Assembly (NCBI RefSeq): GCF_030503855.1
Contig: NZ_CP129971.1
Coordinates: forward strand, 3,286,001 to 3,350,000
Origin: Marivirga salinae
GTDB lineage: Bacteria > Bacteroidota > Bacteroidia > Cytophagales > Cyclobacteriaceae
Reading direction: 5' to 3'
DNA: 64,000 nt
The notes beneath the pieces are model-generated. The model saw only the letters and a program-made list of their open reading frames with translations, searched no databases and was not told where the DNA came from. Each line of letters opens with the position of its first letter. Position 1 is the stretch's first letter. This document shows, in pieces, positions 6,646-23,344 of this stretch. The position numbers and the translations under genes were made by a program.

Positions 6646-9249
6646 TTAGAATAAACCCAATTGCTCTTTATCCTCATCCACATCCAAATCAACTGAATCA
6701 CCTGTTTTATATTCTTTTGCATTTTCTTCTTTCTTGCTTTCCAGTAATTTTACTTTCGTGACATCATATTGAGAAAGTTTATTTCCAATTGCTTTCCAAC
6801 CTTTCACATCAATCAGCATATCGAAATCATAAGTAGCAGATTCCTTTTCCCTACCTTTTCCTTTGCGGAATTCTACTTCTAGTTGTGGATCTTTATCAGT
6901 ACTCACCACTGTCAAAGTAGATTTTTTATGCTCTGAAATAAACACAAAAGGCTTGTTCATTGTGCGGGTTTCAATTTGAAAACGCTTCACAAAATAGTTT
7001 TTAGAAGCTCCATCATAATAAACACTTGAGATGACACAGTTTGGATCGAATTTCTCAATTAACTCTACCTTTTCACCATCAAAACGGTTGGTCAACTCAT
7101 AGTTGCTTAATTCATAAGAACCATCCTTATAAATCACCAAAATATTATCATCTCCGTGGAAAGAACCAATCAACTGACCTCTTTCATCCGTATTCAATTT
7201 GCCTACAGATTGGTCATAATAGATTTTCAATCCTCCAAAACTGCTTTCACCCAGCAATTTGAACTCGATTTTCTTTACAGGGTATTTTGTTAAAATATTT
7301 CCTCCTGCGCCCCTACCTTTGATTTCCAATTCAGCAAAATCAAAATCAAATACTTTTACTCTTGCTCTACATGAATTGGACAGTTTCACATTGATTACCT
7401 CAGATTCACCATTTGGACGAGCTTCCAGATACAATACCTTTGACCCTTTTGCACCTTTTGAAAGGTCATAATCCCTATCTCGAGTTACCGATAAGACTTG
7501 GAATCTTTTCACCATTGTTCTACCTGTTTTTCCATCTAGATAAGCCGCATTATAAACTCTACGCTCATCATTCTTACGGAAAATATCAACGTGAATAATA
7601 TCTTTGCCTACGAATACTTTCTCATCAATTCGCACGACTTTATAAGTTCCGTCACGCTTGAAAGCAATCACATCATCTAAATCCGAGCAATCGGTCACGA
7701 ACTCATCTTTCTTCATTCCATAACCAATAAAGCCTTCCGCCCTGTTGACATAAAGCTTCTGGTTGTTTGCAGCAACTGTATGAGCTTGAATATTATCAAA
7801 GCTCTTGATTTCAGTTTTACGCTCTCTTCCTTTACCGTATTTCTCTAATAAGCCTTTATAATAATCGATGGCATATTCGGTCAAGTTTTTCAAGTGATGC
7901 TCTACCTTGGCTAACTCCTCTTCCAGCTTGCGCATCAATTCATCTGCCTTGAACTTATCAAATTTAGAAATTCTTTTAATTTTAATTTCCGTCAAGCGGA
8001 TGATGTCATCTTGCGTAATTTCTCTGTAAAATTGTGGTTTGAATGGTTCTAAACCTTTGTCAATAGTCTCTAAAACAGCTTCCCAAGTTTCACACTCTTC
8101 AATGTTACGGTAAATTCTGTTTTCAATGAATATCTTTTCCAAAGAAGAGAACAGAATTTTTTCCATCAACTCCCCTCTTCTGATTTCCAATTCACGCTCT
8201 AAAAGATGAAGCGTATCCTCAACATTTTTATTTAGAATCTCATCAACAGGTAAGAAAATAGGCTTATCCTCTATAATTACACAAGCATTGGGCGAAATAG
8301 AAACTTCACAATCTGTAAAGGCATATAAGGCATCAATGGTGATATCAGGAGATTGACCAGCTGCCAATTGTACTTCAATTTCAACATCTTTAGCGGTATT
8401 ATCCACTACTTTTTTCACCTTAATTTTACCCTTATCATTCGCTTTAATGATGGATTCAATCAAACCAGTGGTTGTGGTTCCAAATGGAATGTTTTTGATT
8501 AAAAGGGTACGTTTCTCGCCTTCTTCAATTTTGGCTCTTACCCTGATTTTCCCACCCCTTAAACCTTTATTGTAGTCAGTGAAATCAGCCATTCCCCCTG
8601 TTGGGAAATCAGGATATATTTCAATCTTTTTATTCTTTAAAACATCAATACAAGCTTTGATTAATTCGCAGAAATTATGGGGAAGAATTTTAGTGGAAAG
8701 CCCTACAGCAATTCCTTCAACCCCTTGCGCTAAAAGCAATGGGAATTTTACTGGTAAAGTAACGGGTTCTTTTTTTCGACCGTCATAAGATAACTGCCAT
8801 TCTGTAGTTTGCGGATTGAATACTACATCCAAAGCAAATTTTGAAAGTCTAGCCTCAATATAACGTGGAGCCGCTGAACTATCACCTGTCCTGATATCAC
8901 CCCAGTTACCTTGAGTTTCAATAAGAATATCCTTTTGCCCCATATTCACCATGGCATCTCCTATGGAAGCATCACCATGAGGGTGATATTGCATTGTTTG
9001 TCCGATGATGTTGGCTACCTTATTGAAACGCCCATCATCCATTTCCTTCATGGCATGCATGATCCGTCTCTGGACAGGCTTAAAACCATCTTCATTGGCA
9101 GGCACCGCTCGCTCAAGGATTACATAAGAAGCATAATCCAAAAACCAGTTTTCGTACATACCCGATACGGCAATTACATTATGTAATTTATCCTTATCCT
9201 CTCCGTTTTGGTTGTTCTTAGGTTCGTTATTTTCGTTATTTTCTTCCAT
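6646..9249 (-). CDS. parC: DNA topoisomerase IV subunit A
   Basis: The 867-residue protein contains the type IIA breakage-reunion core. The active-site tyrosine is Tyr130 in AAPRYIEARLS, preceded by HPHGDASIGDAMV (residues 89-101), the quinolone-interaction region. A coiled tower region follows (about 345-480) and then a beta-pinwheel-like C-terminal domain. It lies directly downstream of parE, which supports topoisomerase IV rather than gyrase. The usual serine of the quinolone region is alanine (Ala94) here. The last 60 residues are highly charged and end in EDKEQLGLF. The enzyme decatenates daughter chromosomes in an ATP-driven reaction with ParE. Confidence 0.92.
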   Translation of the reverse strand: MEENNENNEPKNNQNGEDKDKLHNVIAVSGMYENWFLDYASYVILERAVPANEDGFKPVQRRIMHAMKEMDDGRFNKVANIIGQTMQYHPHGDASIGDAMVNMGQKDILIETQGNWGDIRTGDSSAAPRYIEARLSKFALDVVFNPQTTEWQLSYDGRKKEPVTLPVKFPLLLAQGVEGIAVGLSTKILPHNFCELIKACIDVLKNKKIEIYPDFPTGGMADFTDYNKGLRGGKIRVRAKIEEGEKRTLLIKNIPFGTTTTGLIESIIKANDKGKIKVKKVVDNTAKDVEIEVQLAAGQSPDITIDALYAFTDCEVSISPNACVIIEDKPIFLPVDEILNKNVEDTLHLLERELEIRRGELMEKILFSSLEKIFIENRIYRNIEECETWEAVLETIDKGLEPFKPQFYREITQDDIIRLTEIKIKRISKFDKFKADELMRKLEEELAKVEHHLKNLTEYAIDYYKGLLEKYGKGRERKTEIKSFDNIQAHTVAANNQKLYVNRAEGFIGYGMKKDEFVTDCSDLDDVIAFKRDGTYKVVRIDEKVFVGKDIIHVDIFRKNDERRVYNAAYLDGKTGRTMVKRFQVLSVTRDRDYDLSKGAKGSKVLYLEARPNGESEVINVKLSNSCRARVKVFDFDFAELEIKGRGAGGNILTKYPVKKIEFKLLGESSFGGLKIYYDQSVGKLNTDERGQLIGSFHGDDNILVIYKDGSYELSNYELTNRFDGEKVELIEKFDPNCVISSVYYDGASKNYFVKRFQIETRTMNKPFVFISEHKKSTLTVVSTDKDPQLEVEFRKGKGREKESATYDFDMLIDVKGWKAIGNKLSQYDVTKVKLLESKKEENAKEYKTGDSVDLDVDEDKEQLGLF

Positions 9250-9355
9250 TTAAATTAATCAAAGACGATATTCTGATATTATTACTTAAAAACGCAAATT
9301 CAACTTTTGCATCTTTTTTAAAATCAATTCTGAATTGCAATAATTTTACATTAAA

Positions 9356-11215
9356 TCATGCCTCAGCCAACTCTTCTTCTAAATCCTTCTCCACTCTTAA
9401 TTTATCAATAATAAACTGTTGCCTTTCCATAGTATTGGTTCCCATGTAGAAAGTCAAAAGGTCTTTTATCTTGGTTTGATTACTTAAGATAATGGGATCC
9501 AATTTGATGTTTTCATTTATAAACTCACCAAATTCCTCAGGAGAAATCTCTCCAAGCCCTTTAAATCGAGTTATTTCAGCAGCTTTTCCAATTTTTTCTA
9601 TCGCTCTTCTTCTTTCTTCATCTGAATAGCAATAGATGGTTTCCTTTTTATTTCTCACTCTAAATAATGGCGTATCAAGAATGTACAAATGTCCATCACG
9701 AACCAAATCAGGGAAAAACTGTAGGAAAAAGGTCATTAAAAGCAAGCGAATATGCATTCCATCCACATCGGCATCTGTTGCAATAATCACTTTTCTATAG
9801 CGCAATCCTTCCAAACCTTCTTCTATATTCAATGCATGTTGCAGAAGATTGAATTCCTCATTTTCGTACACTAGCTTTTTGGTCTTGCCATAGCAGTTTA
9901 ATGGCTTACCTCTTAAACTAAATACTGCTTGTGTTTGCACATCACGTGATTTGGTGATAGAACCTGAAGCAGAATCACCCTCAGTGATGAATATCATGGT
10001 ATCATCCTTCCTATCGTGCTTAGGATCATCATAATGGACACGACAATCTCTTAATTTCTTATTATGAAGATTCGCTTTCTTAGCTCTCTCGTTAGCCAAT
10101 TTTTTAATCCCTGCCATGTCCTTGCGTTCCCGCTCCGACTGCATGATTCTTTTTTGAATGGCTTCTGCAGTTTGAGGATTTCTATGCAGAAAATCATCCA
10201 AAGCTTTCTTTACGAAATCATTAATGAATGTTCGCATAGTAGGTCCATCAGGTGCTACATTTTGAGAACCTAATTTGGTTTTTGTTTGGGATTCGAAAAC
10301 TGGCTCCTGCACTCGAACAGCTATTGCAGCAACAATGGCTTGTCTGATATCAGATGGATCGTAATTTTTGCCATAAAAATCACGAACGGTTTTCACTATG
10401 GCTTCTTTAAAAGCTACTAAGTGTGTTCCTCCTTGTGTAGTGTTTTGTCCATTAACAAATGAATAATATTCCTCACCATATTGATTGGCATGCGTCATCG
10501 CCATTTCAATATCTTCTCCTTTTAGGTGAATAATTGGATAACGATTCGTTTCTTCATCTGACTTTCTATCTAATAAATCTTTCAATCCATTAGCTGAATG
10601 GAATTTCTCACCATTGAAGTTAATAGTCAATCCTGAGTTCAGGAAAGCATAATTCCACATCTGCTCTTCCAAAAAGCCTGGAATGAAATGGTAGTTTTTA
10701 AAAACTGTTTCATCAGGCTCAAAAGCAATTAAAGTTCCGTTTCTTCCGCTTGAAGAAGTTACTTCCGAATCATTAGCAATTACTCCTCTTTGGAACTCGG
10801 CAACTTTTGTTTGTCCCTCACGGTAAGCCTGAACCTTAAAATAATTGGAAAGTGCATTCACAGCTTTTGTACCAACACCATTTAGCCCAACAGATTTTTG
10901 AAAAGCTCCAGTATCATATTTACCCCCAGTATTGATTTTGGATACACAGTCAACCACTTTACCTAATGGAATTCCTCTTCCGTAATCCCTTACCTCAACT
11001 CTTTGGTCGGTTATTTTTATTTCTATTGTTTTACCAAATCCCATCATGTGTTCATCAATGGAATTATCAATCACTTCTTTTACTAATACATATATCCCGT
11101 CATCAGGTGAAGAACCATCCCCTAATTTTCCGATATACATACCAGGACGCATACGAATATGCTCCCGCCAATCCAGTGATTTTATACTATCCTCGTCATA
11201 TTGAAATTCTGCCAT
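9356..11215 (-). CDS. parE: DNA topoisomerase IV subunit B
   Basis: The 619-residue subunit has an N-terminal GHKL ATPase (catalytic Glu47 in [17 protein letters not shown] near 78, [11 protein letters not shown] near 110) and a transducer domain. A TOPRIM domain follows, with EGDSASGS at 412-419 and DADVD at 481-485 binding magnesium. Length is close to E. coli ParE (630) and it lacks the insertions of many gyrase B proteins. It is the first gene of the unit, 106 bp upstream of parC. It powers strand passage by ParC. Confidence 0.93.
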
Positions 11216-11438
11216 CGCGTTTGTCGGATTGAAAGTTTATGCCTACTCAAATTTTAAAATTACAAAGCTTTTTCTAATTGTAAAGCTTTTTGAAATTGAT
11301 CCTGGTGCAAATTAGGCATAGAAAGCCATCAAAGCAGATAAAGTCTTACATCAAGCAAAGCCAAGAAAATATTTGAATATGAGTTGATTAAAGCTGATAA
11401 ATATGAGCTTTAATCAATAAGAAAAATATTTTAAAAAA

Positions 11439-11900
11439 TTATTTATTTCTTCTCAGAATGAAAGGCAGCCATAGTACCCAGAAAAAGATCATTAAGAGAC
11501 TAATAATAATTAAAGGAAGATACCCATTTTGCGTTAATCCTTCTTCATTGTTAATGAAAATAAATACTGTTAATAAACTCGCAAAGAATAAATTAAAAGC
11601 CCCAGCCAAACTTCTAGCCCATGATGCTAGCGTATTTCTTACTTTCTCATTTTTAAAATAGAATTTAGGACCAATCGGTTGACTTTTAATAACCACTGTA
11701 AGCGCAACACAAATAAGTACAATTACAATTGGAATAATTAATCCAGTATAAAATAAGGTATTATTGCTAAATTGAATTTGATTATTTAAAACTTTGATTT
11801 TCACAATAGATAACTCAGCGAAATATGCATAAGTGTAAAATAAAACGGCTAAATAAGCGATGCTAGTACCAATCAAAAAAGCTCTTGAAATCCTGTCCAT
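11439..11900 (-). CDS. Hypothetical four-helix membrane protein
   Basis: The 153-residue protein has four hydrophobic segments (about 8-28, 50-70, 92-112 and 125-147) separated by charged loops and ends in LRRNK. I do not recognise a family. The minus frame is preferred over the overlapping plus-strand frame because the composition is that of a regular membrane protein with positive-inside loops. It stands alone upstream of a divergent sterol-desaturase-like gene, with no evident operon partner. Confidence 0.6.
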   Translation of the reverse strand: MDRISRAFLIGTSIAYLAVLFYTYAYFAELSIVKIKVLNNQIQFSNNTLFYTGLIIPIVIVLICVALTVVIKSQPIGPKFYFKNEKVRNTLASWARSLAGAFNLFFASLLTVFIFINNEEGLTQNGYLPLIIISLLMIFFWVLWLPFILRRNK

Positions 11901-12033
11901 AATTTTAATTTGCTCGCAAAATTAATTTTATTCATGAGTATTTCAGCATTTTTTCAAGGAAGTTTTTATTCAAAATGTTATATTTCGAAACGAAGCTTAG
12001 GTTAGCTATGTTAAAAGCTTAAATAATATTAAG

Positions 12034-13278
12034 ATGGATTTTAACCCAATCATATTATCAATCCCTATTTATTTTGCCCTTATCGGGATTGAATTGCTTA
12101 TTCAGGCAATAAAAAGATATAGAATCTACAGATTAAATGATGCCATTACCAACATTAGTTGTGGGATTACACAACAAGTCACAGGCATATTTTTCAAAAT
12201 ATTGAGTGTGGCAGCCTATCAATGGGTATTTGAAAATTTTGCCTTGTTTTCTATAGCGCCTACCTGGTACAATCTTATTTTACTATTCATATTAGCTGAT
12301 TTCTTCTATTATTGGGCGCATAGAAAAAGTCATGAAATCAATTTATTCTGGGGCGGGCATGTGGTGCACCATCAGAGTGAGGATTACAACTTCTCAGTAG
12401 CTTTAAGACAGGGTTCTTTCCAAATCATTTGGACATTCTTCTTTTATTTTCCTTTAGCAATTATTGGGTTTGACACTTTAAGTTTTGTGTTAATGTCTGG
12501 TTTAGTGACGGTTTATCAATTTTGGATTCATACAGAAACCATTGGAAAATTAGGGGCTTTCGAAAAGATTTTCAATACACCATCTCATCACAGAGTGCAT
12601 CACGGACGAAACCCAAAATATATAGATAAAAATCATGCAGGTGTTTTTATTATTTGGGATAAAATGTTCGGTACTTTCCAAAAAGAGGAAGAAAGACCGA
12701 CTTACGGAATCACTAAGCAAACTGCCAGCTGGAATCCAGTTTGGGTAAATCTTCAGCACTATGTTGAAATGGGAAAAGGCATTAAGCAAATGAAGGGTTT
12801 TAAAAATAAACTCAAGTACATATTCTACCCTCCAGGTTGGCAACCTAAAGAAATGGGCGGTCAGCTCCCAATTCCAGAAGTTGACCCAGAAAAGGATAGG
12901 AAGTATGACAAGCAAACTTCAGGAGCTTTTAGTTTGTATGTATTAATTCAATACATCATCATTTTAGGAGGAACGGCACTCTTTCTTTTTAATGCTGATA
13001 AATTTAATATTTGGGAACAAGTTTTAGCAGTTACATTAATTATATTGGGCGTAACAGGCGCTGGAGTCATATTGGAAGAAAAGAAATATTCATTTGGGTT
13101 AGAGGTCTTCAGGGTTCTCCTTACCCCTATTATAATTGCTTTTGTACTAATCCCGAATGCAGGGTCAATAATTACCTCTGCCACTTTAGCTTATGGAATT
13201 GTTTCATTTGCTTCACTTATATTCATCAAAAAATCTTATTCAACAGTAAAAAAACCTTCTACTAAATCAATTTCATGA
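12034..13278 (+). CDS. Sterol desaturase / fatty acid hydroxylase family di-iron membrane oxygenase
   Basis: The 414-residue protein shows the histidine clusters of the family: HRKSH at 96-100, HVVHH at 109-113, His166 in a membrane segment, and HHRVHH at 185-190. Together they bind a non-haem di-iron centre at the cytoplasmic membrane face. The N-terminal two thirds carry this domain. The C-terminal third adds about three membrane helices, as in alkylglycerol-monooxygenase-like members. Likely substrates are membrane lipids such as ether lipids, fatty acids or carotenoids, but nothing in the sequence decides. Its TGA overlaps the ATG of the next lipoprotein gene by four bases (ATGA). Confidence 0.85.
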   Translation: MDFNPIILSIPIYFALIGIELLIQAIKRYRIYRLNDAITNISCGITQQVTGIFFKILSVAAYQWVFENFALFSIAPTWYNLILLFILADFFYYWAHRKSHEINLFWGGHVVHHQSEDYNFSVALRQGSFQIIWTFFFYFPLAIIGFDTLSFVLMSGLVTVYQFWIHTETIGKLGAFEKIFNTPSHHRVHHGRNPKYIDKNHAGVFIIWDKMFGTFQKEEERPTYGITKQTASWNPVWVNLQHYVEMGKGIKQMKGFKNKLKYIFYPPGWQPKEMGGQLPIPEVDPEKDRKYDKQTSGAFSLYVLIQYIIILGGTALFLFNADKFNIWEQVLAVTLIILGVTGAGVILEEKKYSFGLEVFRVLLTPIIIAFVLIPNAGSIITSATLAYGIVSFASLIFIKKSYSTVKKPSTKSIS

Positions 13279-13687: not shown

Positions 13688-16009
13688 ATGGCAAACTGGA
13701 GAAGAAGACTTTACGACTGGAAAATTAGAAATTTAGCCTATTCAATGGGCTTCGGAATTTTTCTACTGGCAATTGCCGTTTATTTGGTGATCATGCATAC
13801 TGGCATTAATGAACAAAGCTTACTTAGGACAAAAACCATTGGTAATTTGGACAATATAAGTTTGCCTCTGTCACCAAAATATATAGCCGAGAATAAAGAA
13901 AATATAGGTTCACATGTTAGAGGTATAGAAAGGATTTTATTTGCTTACACCAAAGGCGGGCAATTAGGAGAAGATAAAATTGAAGTTAAAATCAATGAAA
14001 AATTAAAGTCGGAAGTTGAGGATTTGTTAATCTATTGGAATTCTTTAAAAGAAGAACTATATAATATTCAGGATGGAGAAACTTCAATTGATGATGCCAA
14101 AGAAAATCTTGAAAAAAGATACAATGCATTTCTAAAGGAACAGCGAAAAGTAAAAAAATTAATTGAGGAAATTAATCAGGAAGAAGAACAAGCAGAAACT
14201 TTCTATACCATACTCCTATTTTTCTATATCTTTCTATTAAGTTCATTTATTTACTGGATTGTAAAGTATTTGATACTTAATCCGATATACAAAATCTCCC
14301 TTTCTGCTAGAGAATTAGCGAAAGGTAATTTAACAGAAAAAATACCCTATAATAGCAAAAATGAATTAGGCTACATTGCTCAAAACATCAACTCTATGGC
14401 AGAAATTTTAGAAAATGCCACGGATTTCACAACTAAAATTGGCGAGGGTAAATTAGATGCTAATTATAAAGGGTTAGATGAAGATCATGATAATTCTTTG
14501 GCGGCTTCTCTTCTTCAAATGCGAGAAAAAATGCAAGAATCTGCTAAAGCGGATAAAGAGCGCAGCTGGGTAAATGAAGGATTAGCAAAATTTGCAGACA
14601 TCCTCCGAAATAACAATGATAATATCGAGGAATTATCATACCAAATCATTTCAAACTTAGTAAAATTCATGGAAGCCAATCAGGGAGCTTTATTTGTATT
14701 GTCTGAGCCTGATGAAGAAGATGAAGAATCTAAAATCGTATTGGAAGCTGCCTATGCTTACGAGCGTAGAAAGAGATTGAAAAAGGAAATTGCCATAGGT
14801 GAAGGCTTAGTAGGTCAATCAGTTCAGGAAGGTGATAGAATTTACTTAACAGAAGTTCCTCAAGACTATGTTGAAATTAAATCAGGTTTGGGTGAAACGC
14901 TTCCAAGGTGTGTTTTAATTGTACCACTAAAAATAAATGAAGAAATAAAAGGAGTTGTGGAAATCGCTTCTATTCAAGATATACCAGAATACAAAATTGA
15001 GTTTGTTGAGAAATTAGGTGAAAATATTGCTTCTACTATTGCTAATGCAAAAACCAATGAGCGCACCAAGAAACTCTTAATTGAATCTCAGGAGATGACG
15101 GAGCAAATGCGTTCTCAGGAAGAGGAGATGCGACAAAACATGGAGGAAATGGAAGCCACCCAAGAAGAAATGGGTAGAGCTCAGACCGAAATGGCCGAAA
15201 AAGAAGCAAATCTTAATGCATTAATTAATAATACAACTGATTCTATTATTTTAATTGATACTGATTATAAAATAATTTTGATGAATGATGTCATCAAAAA
15301 AAGGTATAAAGATACTCAGTATGAAAAAATGAAAGAGGGTAGCAATGCCCTTGAGATGTTAGGCGATGTTCGTGAGGAATGGAAAGCCTATTATGATAGA
15401 GTATTCAAGGGTGAGTTTCTTTCTTTCACGATTAAAAGCAGTGTGAAAGGAGAAGATACCTATCGTCATTATGATATACACCCTATTAAACAAAAAGACG
15501 GTACCATTACAGGCGCTTCAGTATTTTCAAGAGATATTACCAAAGAAAAACAACTTGAAATACAAAGAGAGGAAACTGCTAAAAAACTTTCACAAAGGGG
15601 ATATGTGCTTGATGGAATGATTAACAATACAGAAGATACTTATTTTGCTATTGATGTTAATTATGAAATAATGGTAGTAAATGAAGTTTTGAAAAATCGT
15701 TTCAAACAATCAGGTGTAAATTTGGAGCCAGGTTTAAGTATTTTGAGTGTATTACCAAAAGACCAATTGGAAAAATGGAAAGCTAGATACGATAAAGCTT
15801 TAGCAGGTGAAAAATTGAAGATTGTAGAGGAAAGAGAGCTTCAAAGTGGAAACCTTACTATCGAAACAAGATGTGAACCTATTCTTAATGATAAGGATGA
15901 GGTAATTGGGGTTTCTACCGTTTCCAAAGACATTACCGAACTTAAAAAGGCTCAAGAAGAAAAAGAAAAACTTCAGAAAGAATTAGAAAAACTTAAAGGC
16001 AAAAAATAG
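13688..16009 (+). CDS. Membrane sensor with HAMP, GAF and two PAS domains but no output domain
   Basis: The 773-residue protein has a first membrane helix (about 17-37), a periplasmic helical region of about 135 residues, and a second helix (about 174-196). A HAMP region follows (about 197-250) with a HAMP-like continuation (NATDFTTKIGEGKLDANY). A GAF domain (about 300-450) and a glutamate/methionine-rich coiled coil (about 455-515) come next, then two PAS domains (about 515-635 and 640-755). It ends in a short coiled coil. No histidine kinase, GGDEF or methyl-accepting core follows; the stop is clean. Such proteins presumably signal through a separate kinase or by oligomerisation. Confidence 0.8.
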   Translation: MANWRRRLYDWKIRNLAYSMGFGIFLLAIAVYLVIMHTGINEQSLLRTKTIGNLDNISLPLSPKYIAENKENIGSHVRGIERILFAYTKGGQLGEDKIEVKINEKLKSEVEDLLIYWNSLKEELYNIQDGETSIDDAKENLEKRYNAFLKEQRKVKKLIEEINQEEEQAETFYTILLFFYIFLLSSFIYWIVKYLILNPIYKISLSARELAKGNLTEKIPYNSKNELGYIAQNINSMAEILENATDFTTKIGEGKLDANYKGLDEDHDNSLAASLLQMREKMQESAKADKERSWVNEGLAKFADILRNNNDNIEELSYQIISNLVKFMEANQGALFVLSEPDEEDEESKIVLEAAYAYERRKRLKKEIAIGEGLVGQSVQEGDRIYLTEVPQDYVEIKSGLGETLPRCVLIVPLKINEEIKGVVEIASIQDIPEYKIEFVEKLGENIASTIANAKTNERTKKLLIESQEMTEQMRSQEEEMRQNMEEMEATQEEMGRAQTEMAEKEANLNALINNTTDSIILIDTDYKIILMNDVIKKRYKDTQYEKMKEGSNALEMLGDVREEWKAYYDRVFKGEFLSFTIKSSVKGEDTYRHYDIHPIKQKDGTITGASVFSRDITKEKQLEIQREETAKKLSQRGYVLDGMINNTEDTYFAIDVNYEIMVVNEVLKNRFKQSGVNLEPGLSILSVLPKDQLEKWKARYDKALAGEKLKIVEERELQSGNLTIETRCEPILNDKDEVIGVSTVSKDITELKKAQEEKEKLQKELEKLKGKK

Positions 16010-16035
16010 TGGGATTTTAAATTAATTTCGAATAT

Positions 16036-16057
16036 ACGATACGTTATCGTGCCTTTG
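16036..16057 (+). promoter_or_regulatory. Inverted repeat ACGATA-N3-TATCGT abutting a -7-like element
   Basis: The six-base arms (16036-16041, 16045-16050) lie directly before TGCCTTTG (16050-16057), one base off the TAnnTTTG consensus. A 13-codon open frame (16083-16124, ATG to TAA) sits between this point and the transglutaminase-like gene. It could be a short leader or chance. The arrangement is compatible with a regulated promoter. Confidence 0.3.
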
Positions 16058-16134
16058 TAGCGGAAATTAATATTTAAGCACTATGAAAGTTACTGCCTTA
16101 ATACCAATAAAGTCATTGACATAATTGAAAACAA

Positions 16135-17520
16135 ATGAATTTTATGTATAAAAACACTTTACTCCTATTACTTATTTCCATATTTCTAATTGCATGTCAA
16201 CCGGGCGAAAAGCAAAATTCTCAAGAAGAGAAAACAAGTAAAAATAAAAGCTCCAAACCAACTCCTAAAGTAGATATAGCCGATATTGAAAAGGGGATAA
16301 AAAATTATATCGACAATAAAACCAAAGAGGCAGATGGCTATTTTCATGTGAAAGATGAAAATAAGGAATTAAGGTTAAAACTTGTCAGGGTTCATACCGA
16401 ATACCTTTCCAATCTGGGCCCAAACCGTCATTTTGCATGCGTAGATTTAGCAGATGAAAATGGTGATGTTTATGATGTGGATTTCTTTATGGAAGGAAAA
16501 CCAGGTGCTATGGATGTAACAGAAACCACCGTTCATAAATTAAATGGAAAACCTTTCTACAGCTGGAAGCAAAAGGAAGATAAAACCTGGCACAGAGTGC
16601 CGATTGAATCAGCTTCAAATGAATTGCTTGGAGTAATTGAAGGAGAAGATGAGTTTGAATTTTATTATGAAACCACTCTACCTGAAATTCAAAATCAAGC
16701 CAAAGTATGGATTCCCATAGCTCAATCTGATAAATTTCAGGATATTGAAATTAAGAATATGGTAATTCAAGGACAGGACAAAATGCTATTAGAGAAAGAA
16801 TATGGTAATAAAATCTTATACTTAGAGCTTAAAGAAGAGCACAGCAATAAGCCAGTGAAAATCACCTATCATGTAAAAAGAAAAGAAAAAGGTGCTTATG
16901 AGGAAGAAAATCCAAATCTTAATAAATTCTTAAGTGGAAATGTGTTAATGCCTGTAGGCAATCAAAGATTTAAAGAAATAGTAGCAGAAGCAACTAAAGG
17001 CAAAGAATATGACAGCAAATTAATTCAAGCTAGAGCAATTTATGATTACATAATTGATAATATGCGCTACGCTAAAAATGAAAAATATGGGACTGGAGAT
17101 GCAGTTTATGCATGTGACTCTAAAACTGGAAATTGTACTGAGTTTCATTCCCTATTTATTTCTTTAGCCAGGACAGCTAATATCCCAGCTCGTTTTGCTA
17201 TTGGTGCAGCAATTCCCTCCAGCAGAGATGATGGTGGAATAAATGGATACCACTGTTGGGCTGAATTTTATGCAGATAACAAATGGTGGCCAGTTGATAT
17301 TAGTGAGGGAAATAAATATACTGCTTTAGCTACTTATTATTTTGGAAGACATCCAGCCAACAGAATTGAGTTTACTAAAGGCAGAGATTTAAAATTTGAA
17401 CCAGCTCCTCAATCAAGCCCAGTCAAATTTATGGCCTACCCTATTTTCGAAGTGGATGGCGAAAGTAAAGTGAGTAATGCTACGTTCAGCTTCCTCCGAA
17501 CAGATAATAAAGAAATATAG
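16135..17520 (+). CDS. Exported lipoprotein with a transglutaminase-like cysteine protease fold
   Basis: The 461-residue protein begins with a signal peptide and lipobox (FLIAC, Cys21). An all-beta region with charged segments precedes a transglutaminase-like core at about 280-400. The catalytic triad is visible: Cys334 in GNCTEFHSLF, His373 in GYHCWAEFY and Asp388 in WWPVDIS. Proteins of this kind act outside the cytoplasm as proteases or crosslinking or hydrolysing enzymes; the substrate here is unknown. The start is ATG at 16135; a second ATG three codons later is equally possible. A strong terminator follows 20 bp after the stop. Confidence 0.82.
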   Translation: MNFMYKNTLLLLLISIFLIACQPGEKQNSQEEKTSKNKSSKPTPKVDIADIEKGIKNYIDNKTKEADGYFHVKDENKELRLKLVRVHTEYLSNLGPNRHFACVDLADENGDVYDVDFFMEGKPGAMDVTETTVHKLNGKPFYSWKQKEDKTWHRVPIESASNELLGVIEGEDEFEFYYETTLPEIQNQAKVWIPIAQSDKFQDIEIKNMVIQGQDKMLLEKEYGNKILYLELKEEHSNKPVKITYHVKRKEKGAYEEENPNLNKFLSGNVLMPVGNQRFKEIVAEATKGKEYDSKLIQARAIYDYIIDNMRYAKNEKYGTGDAVYACDSKTGNCTEFHSLFISLARTANIPARFAIGAAIPSSRDDGGINGYHCWAEFYADNKWWPVDISEGNKYTALATYYFGRHPANRIEFTKGRDLKFEPAPQSSPVKFMAYPIFEVDGESKVSNATFSFLRTDNKEI

Positions 17521-17593: not shown

Positions 17594-17902
17594 TTAGTTT
17601 TCTGGGTGCTCACCACCTTCTTCAGAAGGATGTTCTCCGCCTTCTTCAGCAGGATGCTCTCCGCCTTCTTCAGAAGGATGTTCTTCATGCTCACCTTCTT
17701 CATGCATTGTGCTATCCATTTCCTCTTCCATTGGCATTTCTTCCTCCATGCTCTCTTCCTCCATCATTACTTCTTCTGTAGAATCATCATCTGAAGAGGC
17801 TTCTTTTTTACCATCACCACATGAAATTAATGTCGCTGATAAAAAGAAAATTGCTGCTAATGCAACAAGACTTTCGGATTTAAATTTTTCTAAAATTTTC
17901 AT
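17594..17902 (-). CDS. Small acidic lipoprotein with Glu/His-rich tandem repeats
   Basis: The 102-residue protein has a signal sequence and lipobox (ATLISC, Cys28), then an almost purely acidic tail. An Asp/Ser cluster is followed by a methionine-glutamate region (EEVMMEEESMEEEMPMEEE) and then four near-identical EEGGEHP units with Ser or Ala between them. No folded domain is apparent. His, Met and Glu spacing suggests binding of divalent or soft metal ions at the cell surface, but this is inference. The repeat makes the gene prone to length change by slippage. The plus-strand frames over it are shadows created by the repeat. Confidence 0.7.
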   Translation of the reverse strand: MKILEKFKSESLVALAAIFFLSATLISCGDGKKEASSDDDSTEEVMMEEESMEEEMPMEEEMDSTMHEEGEHEEHPSEEGGEHPAEEGGEHPSEEGGEHPEN

Positions 17903-17984: not shown

Positions 17985-18770
17985 TTAATCCATAGAATCT
18001 CGACTAGTAATCAGTATCAATTCTTCTAATTGATCGAATTGTTTACGGTTCCAATATCGCACACTTCGCAAGCTTTTCTTTTGCTCTTCTAATGAATTAT
18101 TTATTAAATCAATATCTTTTATTAATTCTGCTTGAATTTTGTCCTGTTGTTTTTCTTGATTTTGGATTTGATTGGTCAGCAATTCAATGTTTTGTGATTG
18201 TTGCTCTAGATTAGCGCCAATTGCTTCTTGTTTTATTTTCAAGTTATTATGATCCTCATATGATTGATAGCCGATAATACCTATGAATACAAATAACAAA
18301 AATAATATAAAGCTAGGAATAATGAGGTTAACCTTATTCTGCTTTGCAATTGGAACTGGATTAGCAGAACTCTGAAATTTTTCAGAAGCATTTGGTGCAA
18401 TCACATACTTTTTCCCTGCATACTGAAATAATTGAATTAGTAAATCTCCATCTGCTAAGGTGTGCTTTTGATATTCTTCGAAATCACTATTGCCAATTTG
18501 AACCAAATTATCTTTTAGCGGAGTGTAGGGAATTGAAAAACAAGCCCCATTTTGTTCCAATTTCTTTATAAAAACCACCAATTGAAAATATTCAGAGAGC
18601 GCATTTTGCATATTATCGCCTACCTGAATATAAGCAGTCTGAGTATAAGTTGATATTTGCAAACAACTTTTTGATATGAAATAAGGAGCAATATCCTGTA
18701 AATACAAAACATCCCCTGCCCTTTTTTCAAGTTCTTGAATAACGGTTTGTTCATGTTTTGTAAAATCCAT
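17985..18770 (-). CDS. Membrane-anchored coiled-coil protein of unknown function
   Basis: The 261-residue protein has a mixed alpha/beta N-terminal region (about 1-140), one membrane helix (about 148-168, IIPSFILFLLFVFIGIIGY) and a glutamine/glutamate-rich coiled coil (about 175-240). It ends in ILITSRDSMD. I do not recognise the family. It lies 16 bp after the alanine racemase gene and is probably the last gene of that transcript. A membrane coiled coil would suit a scaffold or sensor for the enzymes encoded upstream, which is inference. Confidence 0.65.
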   Translation of the reverse strand: MDFTKHEQTVIQELEKRAGDVLYLQDIAPYFISKSCLQISTYTQTAYIQVGDNMQNALSEYFQLVVFIKKLEQNGACFSIPYTPLKDNLVQIGNSDFEEYQKHTLADGDLLIQLFQYAGKKYVIAPNASEKFQSSANPVPIAKQNKVNLIIPSFILFLLFVFIGIIGYQSYEDHNNLKIKQEAIGANLEQQSQNIELLTNQIQNQEKQQDKIQAELIKDIDLINNSLEEQKKSLRSVRYWNRKQFDQLEELILITSRDSMD

Positions 18771-18786
18771 TTCTAATCTGCTTTTT

Positions 18787-19944
18787 TTATTTCACAATTG
18801 TTCTAGGAATAGCTGAAGGCAATCTACTTAACATTTCATTATTCAAAAGTTGAGTACTATTCGTAAAACTACTCACATTGATAACATTATTCTTCTGCCT
18901 TCCAATTAAAACTACTTCATCTCCCACTTTAGCTTCAGGAATATGTGTGATATCCACCATAAATAAGTTCATATTAATTAAACCCACTATAGGTGCTTTT
19001 TTTCCACTAATCAAAACATATCCTCTGTTGGATAATGCCCTTGGATAACCATTGGAATAACCCAAAGGCATCACTGCTATCTTCATTTTATGACTTGCTT
19101 GAAACGCTGTTCCATATCCGATAAAGTCACCTTCAGGGACATCCCGAATATCCATTATATCGGTTTTCCAGCTAAATATCCTTTTCAAAGCACCATCTGA
19201 TTTCTTATCAGTCTCTTGTAAGTGATGATAATAGATATCAGGACTGGGCCAAAACCCATATTGAGCTACACCTACTCTCACCAAATCATAGACCGTATCT
19301 GGCATTGCCAAAGCCGCAGCCGAACAGGCAATATGCCTGATGTTAGGTTCAAATTTTTTATCCTTGCAGATTTTCAAGAACTCCTTATACTTCGCTTTTT
19401 GCTTATCAATTTTAAATTGATTGCTCAAGCTTTCAGCACCTCCAAAGTGAGTACATAATCCTTGAAAGACAATATGCTCTTTATTTTTCTTTAAAAAGCT
19501 AATCGCTTTAGGAAATTCTTCAGCAGGCATGCCTGTTCTGTTAGCTCCTGTTTCAACTTCAATATGAACTTTAGCAGGTTTTCCAACTTTTTTAGCCGCC
19601 TCCAATGTGATTGGTAAACGGTCATAATTGTATACAAAAAACTCAATATTATTTTCTATCGCCCATGGGATATCCTCTTCATAAATAATTCCCATGATCA
19701 TAATTTGGCTTTTCTCATGGCAAGCATTGAGTACCTCTTCTGCTTCAAAAGAGGATGCTACCGAAAAATGATGTACACCAGCTTTTTCTGCCATCGGTAC
19801 AAATGACTCAATGCCATGACCATAAGCATTGGCTTTGACTACTGAAGAAAAGATAGCTTTTTTTCCTATCTTCTTTTTTATAAAATTAATATTCGCTTTT
19901 AATGCTGATTGTTTCAGCTCTATTCTCGAAGAGTGTTTTACCAT
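18787..19944 (-). CDS. Alanine-racemase family PLP enzyme (free-standing, atypical active site)
   Basis: The 385-residue protein shows the PLP lysine Lys37 in VVKANAYGHG, Arg136 in TGANRTGM, HIACSAA near 204, Arg223 in DLVRVGVAQYG, the second-subunit catalytic tyrosine Tyr277 in IGYGTAFQ, and GYSNGYPR near 295. The usual C/A-M-D-Q motif is NMNL (324-327), with the aspartate replaced by asparagine. Many Bacteroidota carry their cell-wall racemase fused to MurF; if that holds here, this free-standing enzyme would be a dedicated second copy. It overlaps the upstream papain-like gene by seven bases, so the two are translationally coupled. Substrate could be alanine or another amino acid. Confidence 0.82.
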   Translation of the reverse strand: MVKHSSRIELKQSALKANINFIKKKIGKKAIFSSVVKANAYGHGIESFVPMAEKAGVHHFSVASSFEAEEVLNACHEKSQIMIMGIIYEEDIPWAIENNIEFFVYNYDRLPITLEAAKKVGKPAKVHIEVETGANRTGMPAEEFPKAISFLKKNKEHIVFQGLCTHFGGAESLSNQFKIDKQKAKYKEFLKICKDKKFEPNIRHIACSAAALAMPDTVYDLVRVGVAQYGFWPSPDIYYHHLQETDKKSDGALKRIFSWKTDIMDIRDVPEGDFIGYGTAFQASHKMKIAVMPLGYSNGYPRALSNRGYVLISGKKAPIVGLINMNLFMVDITHIPEAKVGDEVVLIGRQKNNVINVSSFTNSTQLLNNEMLSRLPSAIPRTIVK

Positions 19945-21932
19945 TTTTTCTTTGTTTCCAGCCAGGTATATGATTTCCCCCAGCTATCTTTTGCTAATGT
20001 TTTAACTTTTTCTACTTCTGAGGCAGGTATATTATCTACCATATTTTCTGCTTCTAAATCATTAAAATGGAATGCATAAGTCCTTGCAGCAAATTGATAC
20101 AATGGAAGAGATGATTCTCCGTGATATTCTCCATTCCCGAATACGGAAGGTTTTATATTCTGTCCCCAATCCTGTCGCCCCTCATTATTAGGGTTCAGAA
20201 AATAGGCTCTGTAATCACCAGATGGATCTTTTTCTACTCTCAATAATGAAACTGCATGGAAACCTAACATTTCTCCTTTAGAACTTGTTATAAAAATACC
20301 AACAGGATTTGGATAAATCAACCTATGGTTTCCATTATAATCAGGATGACACATGGCGTAAAATACTCTCACAAAGCCATCAAAATCAACTATTGCGTTG
20401 GAGAAATAATCATAAGCCGAAGCAAATCCAATCTGAATCCATTGTCCATATAGTGCTGGATTTACCCATTTATGTGGGTCTTCTGCCCTACCTGAGCCAC
20501 GGAGCATCATTTCATTATAAATTCTGTCCAACATTGGCACAAGCGTAACAGAAACAGCATCTAGGTTATAATCCAGATTTTGTACTAAACCTTGTCCCGT
20601 TACAGAAGCTTTAATTTCCTGACCTTCAAATCGGAAAGTGATATCATTGGTGACTGCTGCGGTCTGCACCATGTTGATCAACTTCGCAGGTGCATGCTGA
20701 CTCCACATACTGATTCCTCTGGCACTTTGACAGGTAGGATTGTTTCCTTGACCTACACCAAGAGGTTGTCCCAATATTCTAAAAAGTGCGCCAATCAAAT
20801 ATTGTCTGGCACTCACAGCCTGATGTGGGTTTCTAGTGGATTTCAAAATCCTTTCTTCCACTTTCGGATTGATTTTTATCCCACTTAAATTAGATAAGCC
20901 CGATCTAACCGCCTCACGAGCTATAGTACCATTTTCTAGCATCTTAGCCAAGCCGTAAATACATTGGGCATTATAAATATGGATGGTTTTTAATATTAAA
21001 TCAGATAGATATTCTGTAAGCTCATTCCATCTGGTCTCACCTACTGGTGTTAATCCTAATGCAACCGGAACTGTTTGAAAATACTCATTTTCAATCAAGA
21101 ACTTTAAGAGTACAGCATGATACTGGCTCACCAATCCATATTTCAGCATTGACTTGCCCATAAGCTCTGCCTCAACATACAGTTCTGTATTATTTAAACC
21201 TTCCAATACAGCCTGATACTCCGTAACATTTTTATCGGCAGTATGATCAGTTGGTCTATAAATGCATCTTTGGAAGCTTAATAATTTTTGATCTCCTTCC
21301 TTTTTAGGATCTAATTCAATTTTTTCCTTAACTAAAGCAATAATTTTTCTTTGCTTTTCGGTAACCACAGGTCTTTGTTCACAAATCAGCGTAAGTTCTT
21401 CTGCCAATGTTTCCTTCACATCATCTAAGTGAATGTGCTGAGAAAGAAAATTAAAGAGGTTGTGAACTTTATGCAATTCATGCTCGCTCATGGTAAGGCG
21501 GGTCTCTTCTACAGGATCATTGAACACAAATTCTAAATTTGCCACAATAACTTCCTGTATGAAACTTTCGGCATCTTCTGCAGAAATAATATCTGTTTTG
21601 TAATCGCCTTTAGCTATAGCCAGTAATCTGAGTTCACTTAAAAGTTCAATTGTGGAATTAGGATGACCGCTTTTCAAAGTTCCATTCACTAATCCCGCAA
21701 CTAATTTAGAAGGATCTGCCCAAGGTGATTCGTTAAAAATTCCACCTTCGGATATTTCTTCAATCAAATCATATACTAAAGTCAATCCTTCCACAGAATC
21801 ACTTAAAATATCGATTTGTCCCATTAGACGGTTCGCTTTCTCTGGTCTTGTTAAAGAAGTCGCAGAGGTGAACTCTTCTAATAGTTCTTGTAATTTTTGA
21901 TTACTATTGTCAATTAATGTTTGATTCCCCAT
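19938..21932 (-). CDS. Large protein with a candidate papain-like Cys-His-Asn centre
   Basis: This 664-residue soluble protein has no signal peptide. Residues 1-370 are mostly helical. From about 385 the pattern resembles a papain or C39-like fold: Gln395 and Cys401 in VGQGNNPTCQSARG (cysteine at the start of a helix), His559 in LGFHAVSLLRV at the start of a strand, and Asn580 in YFLNPNNEGRQ on the next strand. Spacing and local motifs fit a cysteine peptidase, amidase or acyltransferase. I do not recognise a named family and have not tested the fold. The gene precedes and overlaps an alanine racemase gene and follows an ATP-grasp ligase gene, suggesting work on an amino-acid conjugate. Confidence 0.6.
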   Translation of the reverse strand: MGNQTLIDNSNQKLQELLEEFTSATSLTRPEKANRLMGQIDILSDSVEGLTLVYDLIEEISEGGIFNESPWADPSKLVAGLVNGTLKSGHPNSTIELLSELRLLAIAKGDYKTDIISAEDAESFIQEVIVANLEFVFNDPVEETRLTMSEHELHKVHNLFNFLSQHIHLDDVKETLAEELTLICEQRPVVTEKQRKIIALVKEKIELDPKKEGDQKLLSFQRCIYRPTDHTADKNVTEYQAVLEGLNNTELYVEAELMGKSMLKYGLVSQYHAVLLKFLIENEYFQTVPVALGLTPVGETRWNELTEYLSDLILKTIHIYNAQCIYGLAKMLENGTIAREAVRSGLSNLSGIKINPKVEERILKSTRNPHQAVSARQYLIGALFRILGQPLGVGQGNNPTCQSARGISMWSQHAPAKLINMVQTAAVTNDITFRFEGQEIKASVTGQGLVQNLDYNLDAVSVTLVPMLDRIYNEMMLRGSGRAEDPHKWVNPALYGQWIQIGFASAYDYFSNAIVDFDGFVRVFYAMCHPDYNGNHRLIYPNPVGIFITSSKGEMLGFHAVSLLRVEKDPSGDYRAYFLNPNNEGRQDWGQNIKPSVFGNGEYHGESSLPLYQFAARTYAFHFNDLEAENMVDNIPASEVEKVKTLAKDSWGKSYTWLETKKKW

Positions 21933-22035
21933 GGGATTCTAAAAATTTATAAGATTCATTGCCAAAGTTAAAAAATGACAAGCGTTAATAATATTCAATT
22001 TAGCATCAAATGATGCAAAGAATATAGAATTCAAT

Positions 22036-22071
22036 AAAAACTAGCACAAGCTAATGCTTGCGCTAGTTTTT
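22036..22071 (-). terminator. Intrinsic terminator after the ATP-grasp gene
   Basis: The outer arms AAAAACTAGC and GCTAGTTTTT pair perfectly. An inner CAAGC-TAAT-GCTTG stem-loop is separated from them by a single mismatch. The T-run on the minus strand makes it an intrinsic terminator. It lies 53 bp past the ATP-grasp stop and about 100 bp before the papain-like gene. A second small hairpin, CAAGCG-AGA-CGCTTG, sits at 22092-22106. The two genes may therefore be joined only by read-through. Confidence 0.7.
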
Positions 22072-22123
22072 GATTTTTAATTTCATGAACACAAGCGAGA
22101 CGCTTGCTCCATATATTTGTTAC

Positions 22124-23344
22124 TTAATGATAGAAATCTACATTTTCATAATGTAATAATAATTCCGTCATTCTATCAGGGTCTTCTCCCTTAAAGTTTA
22201 CTGTACCAAAATGGTTCCCGAAACCATCACGATCACTTATTTTTTGGGTAGTCATCGGTGGCACCAAGTTATGGTCTAAGAAATATGGCTCTTCTTTTAA
22301 CTCCTCAGGTATTTCTAATTTGGAAATAGAATTCTTATGAGGATAAATCATCACATTTCCGTAGAAATTCTTAGGCCTTGCATCTATTGCTGGTAATATT
22401 TCATTCAACTCCTCTTCCGTTAGATCAGGATCGTGGCACAATACAAATGCTCCTAAAGCATCAAAATCATAAGCTTTGCCCGCTAGTTCTAGAATGTGAC
22501 CACCAGGGATTCGGCAAGCCACCTCACCAAAACTTAAGGTATCATCTTCAGTTAAGAACCATTCTGGATGAATCATTCCATATTCAATGCCGAATAAATC
22601 TACCAACTTCTGCATTTCTTTCATGATTCTATCACGTTTGCTATGCAGTAAATTTCCTTCAGGAATGAAATTAGAATACCCTAATTTCACATATTCGGTA
22701 ATATTTAAGAATCTAATTTTCCCTTTATGAACAAATGCTTCACATGAAAATTCTGTTCCTGGTAAGTGGCTTTCTGCTAAGCAAGGAAAATCATCCTCTT
22801 GACATTTTTCATCAACGTCATCCATAGAGCGCAATAATCGGTGCCCAACAGTACCTGCTGATGCAAAAGGTTTAATATGTACCCAGCTATCTTCTTCTCC
22901 ATCTACTTGGAGGTTAGCCTGATTTAACCTTTTCATAAAGGCCTTAACACCTTCTTTGTTGTAAACCTCTTCAAATAAACCTACACGCAAACCACCAATT
23001 AAAGCTTTTCTCTTCATCATGGCTTTATTTCTAAATAGAAATGCTCGGTTTAAAACACGAGGATCATCCCTGTAAATAGAATTCAATGCACCTGCCCATT
23101 CTACTGTTTCTTCAAATAGCGGTACAGCCACATCCACATTAAAGGGTTTTAATTTCTCATGTAAATCCAAAGAATTGGAAGTATCACTCCATTCATCAAA
23201 TTGATAAGCAACAAAAGGGATATCATGCTCTTTGGCATAATCCTCAAAATCAGGAAATGATACCACTACATAAGGTTTATTGAGTTTTTGCATACTCTCG
23301 ATTACGGGTAAACTCCAACCCATTAGTGCAAAACAATTTGCCAT
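22124..23344 (-). CDS. ATP-grasp family carboxylate-amine ligase
   Basis: The 406-residue protein has the ATP-grasp layout: an N-terminal Rossmann-like part (ALMGWSLPVIESMQK, VAVPLFEETVEWA), a nucleotide-binding lysine in HIKPFASAGTVGHRLL, the ESHLPGTEFSCEAFVHKG strand pair near 195, and a metal/ATP motif GEVACRIPGGH near 280. Enzymes of this class form amide bonds from a carboxylate, ATP and an amine; many make dipeptides or natural-product intermediates. It is not a purine or cell-wall ligase that I recognise. It lies upstream of the papain-like and racemase genes in the same direction, with a terminator between. Confidence 0.78.
   Translation of the reverse strand: MANCFALMGWSLPVIESMQKLNKPYVVVSFPDFEDYAKEHDIPFVAYQFDEWSDTSNSLDLHEKLKPFNVDVAVPLFEETVEWAGALNSIYRDDPRVLNRAFLFRNKAMMKRKALIGGLRVGLFEEVYNKEGVKAFMKRLNQANLQVDGEEDSWVHIKPFASAGTVGHRLLRSMDDVDEKCQEDDFPCLAESHLPGTEFSCEAFVHKGKIRFLNITEYVKLGYSNFIPEGNLLHSKRDRIMKEMQKLVDLFGIEYGMIHPEWFLTEDDTLSFGEVACRIPGGHILELAGKAYDFDALGAFVLCHDPDLTEEELNEILPAIDARPKNFYGNVMIYPHKNSISKLEIPEELKEEPYFLDHNLVPPMTTQKISDRDGFGNHFGTVNFKGEDPDRMTELLLHYENVDFYH

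Follow-up and report, generated by a model that had tools for sequence, protein, structure and literature searches.

We propose, with moderate confidence, that an ATP-grasp ligase (GRASP), a papain-like cysteine enzyme (CYS) and an Alr-type racemase (ALR) encoded side by side in the genome of Marivirga salinae belong to a single uncharacterised pathway in the cytosol for an ornithine- and D-amino-acid-containing amide, which would be made and perhaps exchanged or hydrolysed. The proposal builds on the observed gene set, its order, an overlap between two of the genes, conserved catalytic residues and the ornithine genes linked to it in certain lineages, together with a structure model in which CYS appears papain-like. 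Several literature searches, which covered the best matches of many, found no paper describing this set of three genes.

Gene organization and conservation

ORF calling in the 64,000-nucleotide stretch of M. salinae DNA that was analysed (the window) placed four minus-strand ORFs at 17985-23344, just where the initial annotation had put a ligase, a Cys-His-Asn enzyme, a racemase and a membrane coiled-coil protein. They encode GRASP (22124..23344; 406 aa), CYS (19938..21932; 664 aa), ALR (18787..19944; 385 aa) and CC261 (17985..18770; 261 aa). The last 7 nt of CYS (19938-19944) are also the first of ALR, from its ATG onwards, and the same overlap is present in 58 of the 60 loci with both ends matched. 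Between GRASP and CYS lies a terminator-like 16-bp hairpin (22036..22071, minus strand), which is absent from the output of a consensus terminator scan; the stretch that holds it (21930-22126) folds at -49 kcal/mol (z -4.34), with none of 200 shuffles equally stable. Because of this hairpin, GRASP may be transcribed separately from CYS, ALR and CC261 in the M. salinae genome.

GRASP, CYS and ALR were all present in 67 of the 79 retrieved loci (matches >150 bits for GRASP or >200 bits for ALR), with identical order and strand in all 67. The co-occurrence of four families envisaged by the initial annotation thus holds for these three but not for the coiled-coil protein, relatives of which, by clustering, directly follow ALR in only 8/79 loci (four Marivirga-type and four Marinoscillum/Ekhidna-type). 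By hhalign, the forms from the two lineages are homologues (prob 96.7, E 4.3e-10). CC261 has a soluble domain, one hydrophobic membrane segment (residues ~148-170) and a polar, coiled-coil-like tail, as read by eye from the sequence in agreement with the earlier description, and is an optional lineage add-on outside the conserved set.

ALR does not adjoin GRASP and CYS in L068, L087, L088 and L089 (all titled outside Bacteroidota), in the Halomonas plasmid record L105 (genes read from ORFs) or in 15 further stretches, and carriers titled outside Bacteroidota mostly have GRASP and CYS without a linked ALR. Since several loci have the pair without an adjoining ALR, the racemase looks like an addition to a GRASP-CYS core, and where ALR is unlinked, linkage to a racemase is clearly dispensable. 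In L077 (titled Bernardetiaceae, Bacteroidota) neither GRASP nor ALR adjoins CYS, and GRASP is found on another contig of that genome. Close relatives of GRASP (at least 69% identity) occur in 15 of 39 related genomes, all 15 being among the 16 with CYS. Twenty coinciding longest-contig sizes between the best-120 lists of the CYS and GRASP homologues nearest L089 suggest shared contigs. The distance correlations among the three proteins (0.90-0.93 over 62 sequences) were given no weight, since the common descent of the species accounts for them. The four proteins had no match in PADLOC, so an anti-phage system was rejected, as was viral carriage, no relative having appeared in two scans of viral contigs.

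CYS, a conserved papain-like enzyme

The residues of CYS were counted in 325 homologues (ORFs >600 aa from the loci plus proteins of 601-759 aa from databases). Cys401 (codon 20730..20732, minus strand), the predicted nucleophile, and Gln395, six residues N-terminal to it, are each kept in 325/325; of the other predicted catalytic residues, His559 (20256..20258, minus strand) is kept in 325/325 and Asn580 (20193..20195, minus strand) in 324/325, the remaining protein having Asp. The proposed Cys-His-Asn triad is therefore complete in 324 of the 325. Papain likewise has a Gln six residues before its catalytic Cys, a spacing that CYS shares with the papain-like superfamily in addition to the triad. 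The predicted structures (pLDDT 83.0; 89.6 for residues 350-664) model the C-terminal half as papain-like behind a helical N-terminal half. Using the whole chain, Foldseek found no structure at E <=0.001; calpain II was the best match (E 0.053, prob 0.94). Many of the structural neighbours of CYS among the matches listed are hydrolases.

Sequence searches gave CYS no named family. Zero Pfam families matched at E 10 (C1, C2, C39, BtrH_N and DUF3335 included), in a search from which the HMMER filters remove the majority of very weak similarities; NCBIfam gave no match, and the best profile match among PDB sequences reached an E of only 0.22. Among the database proteins scored, at least 1870 match the family, which has named carriers in several phyla. 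CYS is a strongly conserved enzyme family without a Pfam or NCBIfam match, the usual partner of which is a predicted amide ligase.

The ligase and the racemase

GRASP scored 25.1 bits against PF13535 (ATP-grasp_4), just under the gathering cut-off of 27, and PF13535 is precomputed on 120/120 of the GRASP homologues of L089 among the matches listed. Residues 63-309 match PDB 4wd3, an "L-amino acid ligase" (E 2.9e-7), and more distantly 3vot (BL00235; E 0.04), consistent with the carboxylate-amine ligase originally assigned. K158, E191, E198, E261, E274 and R278 are kept in 200/200 aligned sequences (here and for ALR, ORFs within length limits), and the counterparts of E261, E274 and R278 in the alignment with 4wd3 are E, E and R. 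Although the similarity is weak, the resemblance to 4wd3 suggests that GRASP may be an L-amino-acid ligase. We know of no papain-like partner of the 4wd3 and 3vot enzymes.

ALR scored 287 bits against the alanine racemase equivalog TIGR00492 (cut-off 168), in line with the predicted amino-acid racemase. K37, which we take to be the PLP lysine, and Y277, presumably the catalytic tyrosine, are present in 70/70 aligned sequences, as are R136 and R223; ALR thus has both the lysine and the tyrosine expected of an alanine racemase. At the pocket position that we number as Alr Tyr354, ALR proteins have Asn in 64/70 and Gln in 4/70, and Asn also stands there in the aligned serine racemase 4ecl. This substitution at a single position is only suggestive with regard to alanine activity. 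Against the VanT serine racemase model NF033131, ALR reached 243.1 bits, under the cut-off of 460, and the ornithine racemase Orr (NF040742) was not among its nine NCBIfam matches (E 0.001). The M. salinae genome also encodes a MurF-Alr fusion (1065 bits, cut-off 804), to the Alr part of which ALR is 27% identical. ALR is therefore not the sole cell-wall alanine racemase; had it been, the interpretation in the initial annotation would by its own terms have been refuted.

Linkage to ornithine-making genes

The products of argB, argD, argC and argJ make free ornithine. Together with the trio they form a same-strand row of seven genes, a unit carried by Phaeodactylibacter xiamenensis, in the order argB-argD-argC-argJ then trio in L184 and L196, and trio then argB-argD-argC-argJ in L185 and L197; L183 has the latter order with a coiled-coil gene between, and in L059 the arg genes and the trio are divergent. 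All four arg products of L185 exceed their NCBIfam cut-offs. One argJ was found in 11 of 14 chosen trio genomes, in each case next to a high-scoring type of argC (425-459 bits); ten of the 11 carry another argC, of lower score (285-307 bits), at a different place. Among 39 relatives, ArgJ occurs in 7/16 genomes with CYS versus 0/23 others (Fisher 7.4e-4, for close relatives that are not independent), or, by genera, in 6/7 with CYS versus 0/23 without. Two CYS copies (L136 and L138) adjoin an ABC transporter that, judging by sequence, is of the putrescine type; for L138 the permease domain is identified by Pfam.

In 52 of 77 loci none of the four arg genes was found (a count that leaves out L081 and L087, in which the ORF caller lost CYS), and in the ten Cyclobacterium-type loci the arg neighbours are an arginine set without an adjoining argJ. 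ArgJ is common in the phylum (122/296 genomes), and its presence there in 3/4 genomes with CYS (one a fragment) versus 119/292 others is uninformative. ArgJ was not found in the M. salinae genome itself, which weakens the ornithine step; it is absent from 8/10 sampled genomes of the genus, and one of the remaining two has only a 264-aa remnant.

Proposed pathway

GRASP would activate an amino acid at its carboxyl group at the expense of ATP and couple it to an amine. Where the unit includes ALR, the racemase would supply a D-amino acid as one partner, and free ornithine from argB-argD-argC-argJ would be the other partner or its precursor. With the amide, CYS would form an acyl-enzyme on Cys401, from which the acyl group would go to another amine or, at product turnover, to water; the direction in which CYS acts, the substrate of ALR and the product itself are inferred. 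The product may be a D-amino-acid dipeptide or conjugate, as suggested earlier. Of that earlier interpretation, the co-occurrence of the trio stood up, as did the existence of another cell-wall racemase, whereas the membrane protein dropped out of the set, and the ornithine genes lie outside the window. The separate ornithine supply tied to the unit in part of Bacteroidota yields a short, testable list of substrates. Tentatively, the trio may represent a widespread unrecognised pathway, in which a new papain-like family would catalyse amide transpeptidation alongside an ATP-grasp ligase, and to which Bacteroidota would have added an Alr-type racemase and a dedicated supply of free ornithine, giving an unseen D-amino-acid- or D-ornithine-containing metabolite. 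If confirmed, the pathway would give marine and saline bacteria a further metabolite and a further class of enzyme.

Alternative explanations

Glutathionylspermidine synthetase/amidase sets a precedent for an amide pool regulated by making and breaking, and GRASP could similarly make an ornithine or polyamine amide of which CYS is the amidase. The ligase and the papain-like enzyme are indeed the most constant pair, the putrescine-type transporter stands next to CYS in L136 and L138, and the hydrolases among the structural neighbours fit as well. We nevertheless consider this explanation unlikely, as it does not need the racemase, no GRASP-CYS fusion was seen, and in genomes with 3-4 CYS copies GRASP adjoins only some of them. 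Still less probable is a compatible-solute pathway. Its product would be a derivative of ornithine or lysine that cells keep abundant where salinity is high, as Halobacillus does with N-delta-acetylornithine; GRASP and CYS would protect the alpha-amino group and deprotect it again, and a GNAT would acetylate the side chain. Named CYS carriers include Halobacillus halophilus, Pontibacillus, Thalassobacillus and the Halomonas record, related GNAT genes adjoin GRASP and CYS in L088 and L089, and according to a passage of PMC4187189 the N-delta-acetyltransferase of H. halophilus had yet to be identified. The trio itself has no GNAT, however, and carriers of CYS or GRASP among the matches listed also include Nitrospirales, Polyangiaceae, Saccharibacillus and Bacillus thermotolerans.

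We regard it as similarly improbable that GRASP and CYS tag a protein or peptidoglycan with an amino acid, or strip such a tag off, in a complex anchored by the membrane protein. Proteases are common among papain-like enzymes, the large helical N-terminal half of the CYS model could bind a protein, and the membrane partner recurs in two lineages; yet that partner is confined to the eight loci mentioned above, the neighbour families found in at least 10 of the loci read, besides the trio and arg genes, stem from Cyclobacterium-type loci, and GRASP resembles ligases of free amino acids. It is very improbable that ALR is an ordinary alanine racemase, linked to GRASP and CYS for D-alanine supply alone: its TIGR00492 score favours this, whereas the MurF-Alr fusion, the low identity of ALR to the Alr part of that fusion and the serine-racemase-like pocket residue argue against it.

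Related systems

The amide pathway that we prefer has partial parallels among known systems. The calpain protease core (PDB 1tl9) and phytochelatin synthase, a papain-like transpeptidase (PDB 6th5, 2bu3), are among the closest to CYS, which is 13% identical to the latter but differs in its long helical N-terminal half and has no Pfam match to that family. Glutathionylspermidine synthetase/amidase combines CHAP amidase and GSP_synth domains, neither of which has a Pfam match in GRASP or CYS. BtrJ is the ATP-grasp ligase of the butirosin pathway. With BtrJ and BtrH the trio shares the logic of an ATP-grasp enzyme and papain-like acyl transfer (for BtrH, as described in part of PMC10318531). The BtrH_N match is absent from CYS. 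Iyer et al. reportedly predicted, in 2009, peptide-ligase neighbourhoods of ATP-grasp, papain and GNAT proteins with a similar logic of ligase, cysteine enzyme and amino-acid-modifying enzyme.

Gene block and conservation

ORF calls confirmed all four minus-strand genes of the initial annotation, in the order GRASP (ATP-grasp carboxylate-amine ligase, 406 aa; 22124-23344), CYS (a 664-aa papain-like cysteine enzyme without a named family; 19938-21932), ALR (Alr-type racemase, 385 aa; 18787-19944), which starts within the last CYS codons with a 7-nt overlap, and CC261 (17985-18770), a 261-aa protein in which a single hydrophobic segment and a tail resembling a coiled coil were read by eye. By folding, a 16-bp hairpin was located between GRASP and CYS (22036-22071), and the stretch bearing it folds far better than its own shuffles (z -4.34); the ligase may therefore have a separate transcript in this genome, a single contig of 4,494,741 bases. 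CYS identity reaches 96% in a record titled Bacteroidetes bacterium and 88% in L011, the nearest record titled Marivirga; the group around the window's locus is termed Marivirga-type here.

The initial annotation had proposed that the four genes form one block, and this was borne out in other genomes for GRASP, CYS and ALR (the trio), but not for CC261. One scan of genome contigs gave 79 loci, taken from the best 80 of 92 confirmed matches and hence biased toward near relatives; the trio occurs together in 67 of these, with identical order and strand in 67/67, and the CYS-ALR overlap was found again in 58/60. The identical order is not due to chance. CC261-like proteins follow ALR in only 8/79 loci from two lineages, the two forms being homologous. 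GRASP is absent from six loci, five with fewer than 400 bases ahead of CYS and the sixth being L077. ALR is absent from seven: L066, at a contig end; L084, with 964 bases beyond CYS; L077, whose title, Bernardetiaceae, names a Bacteroidota group; and those titled Oligoflexia (L068), Euryarchaeota (L087), Vampirovibrionales (L088) and Gammaproteobacteria (L089), bearing in mind that titles of metagenome bins can mislead, as with L040, titled Rickettsiales, which carries the full trio and nearly the same neighbours as Marinoscillum L039. Among 39 relatives, CYS was found in 16 and a close GRASP in 15, every one of which also has CYS; in the remaining CYS genome the retrieved stretch breaks off within CYS. 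At phylum level the CYS system is sporadic, with 4/296 genomes in the window genome's phylum (its own included), 8/299 in that of L089 (likewise) and 1/194 in that of L088, namely its own.

GRASP and CYS also occur with no ALR linked to them, in the Halomonas record L105 as well as in the majority of stretches from genomes of L089's phylum, where some CYS copies in addition have no adjoining GRASP. For the homologues nearest L089, the lists of the 120 best for CYS and for GRASP have twenty exact longest-contig sizes in common, which suggests that CYS and GRASP are linked there too. Related GNAT acetyltransferase genes adjoin GRASP and CYS in L088 and L089. Three genomes (L132-L146) encode three or four CYS genes each; some of the extra copies adjoin other partners, namely a putrescine-type ABC transporter in L136 and L138, a GCS2-type ligase together with a Memo protein in L146, and a fatty-acid desaturase in L134.

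Protein families and ornithine genes

GRASP resembles free L-amino-acid ligases by PDB sequence match (4wd3, E 2.9e-7; 3vot, E 0.04) and keeps K158, E191, E198, E261, E274 and R278 in 200/200 aligned sequences. ALR scores above the alanine racemase cut-off, with K37 and Y277 in 70/70 aligned sequences; the position aligned with an Asn of serine racemase 4ecl is Asn in 64/70 and Gln in 4/70. It is not the sole cell-wall racemase, a role that the initial annotation had named as counting against its reading, because a MurF-Alr fusion is encoded in the same genome.

ArgJ frees ornithine; arginine synthesis in this phylum, by way of acetyl- or succinyl-ornithine, is not known to need it. At least one of argB, argC, argD and argJ lies near CYS in 25/77 examined loci. 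Ten of these, all Cyclobacterium-type, have a set of arginine genes (argG, argF and others) that diverges from the trio and includes no argJ; in the other 15 the genes run on the trio's strand, downstream of it in 11 and upstream in 2, or diverge from it (2), and argC is the high-scoring type adjoining argJ in 6/6 loci whose genomes were scored. Seven-gene units occur as argB-D-C-J-GRASP-CYS-ALR (L184, L196) and as GRASP-CYS-ALR-argB-D-C-J (L185, L197), all four arg products of L185 being above NCBIfam cut-offs. Eleven of 14 hand-chosen trio genomes have one argJ, beside the high-scoring argC in 11/11, and ten of the eleven have a second argC elsewhere.

ArgJ was found in 7/16 CYS genomes versus 0/23 others among the 39 relatives (Fisher 7.4e-4; by genus, 6/7 versus 0/23); the genomes compared are related by descent, and one ArgJ gene of the seven is truncated. 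Phylum-wide, ArgJ is common (122/296), and its distribution is uninformative: whole in two of the four CYS genomes, a fragment in one and none in one, versus 119/292 others. ArgJ was not found in the window's own genome and is absent from 8/10 sampled genomes of its genus. The remaining two have a whole argB-D-C-J cluster (L195, 8448-12864) and a 264-aa ArgJ remnant (L194, 8092-8886), with the same genes on one side. Since the window's genome lacks ArgJ and 52/77 examined loci have none of the four arg genes near CYS, Marivirga may have another ornithine source, or the trio may act independently of ornithine.

Proposed mechanism

ATP-grasp ligases with papain-like enzymes and amino-acid-modifying partners are a known kind of set, of which the trio is a variant. 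GRASP would form an acyl phosphate and then an amide, ALR would supply a D-amino acid, and CYS would take the acyl group onto Cys401 and pass it to an amine, most likely ornithine or an ornithine product, or to water. We give this reading an even chance; its observed basis is limited to gene set, residues, fold and linkage. GRASP and CYS could instead be a ligase/amidase pair without transfer, which seems unlikely, and modification of protein or envelope appears less probable still.

Equally improbable is a role in making a salt-linked solute. As a lead only, CYS carriers include Halobacillus halophilus, Pontibacillus, Thalassobacillus and a Halomonas record, and GRASP occurs in Planococcus; N-delta-acetylornithine of H. 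halophilus is described as the product of a so far unidentified acetyltransferase (PMC4187189), and N-epsilon-acetyl-lysine is noted in Planococcus (PMC4685198). Carriers of CYS or GRASP with no obvious salt habit also exist.

Neighbouring genes and a second racemase operon

A 102-aa acidic, Glu/His-rich protein with a lipoprotein-like start is encoded at 17594-17902 (minus), with relatives in 5/79 loci, all Marivirga-type. Convergent with the four-gene block (13688-17520, plus) are genes for a HAMP-GAF-PAS protein, in which Pfam matched no kinase domain, and for a transglutaminase-like lipoprotein, both near the block in five Marivirga-type loci. Elsewhere in the same genome (L193, C1:4180500-4200000), a second racemase operon at 6886-12447 of that stretch (minus) encodes a sodium/solute symporter, a GNAT protein, an Orr-like racemase scoring 304.6 bits against NF040742 (cut-off 480), an M20 amidohydrolase that resembles DoeB2 but does not reach its cut-off, and an Alr paralogue with 43% identity to the window ALR. 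This looks like an operon that imports an acylated diamino acid and degrades it.
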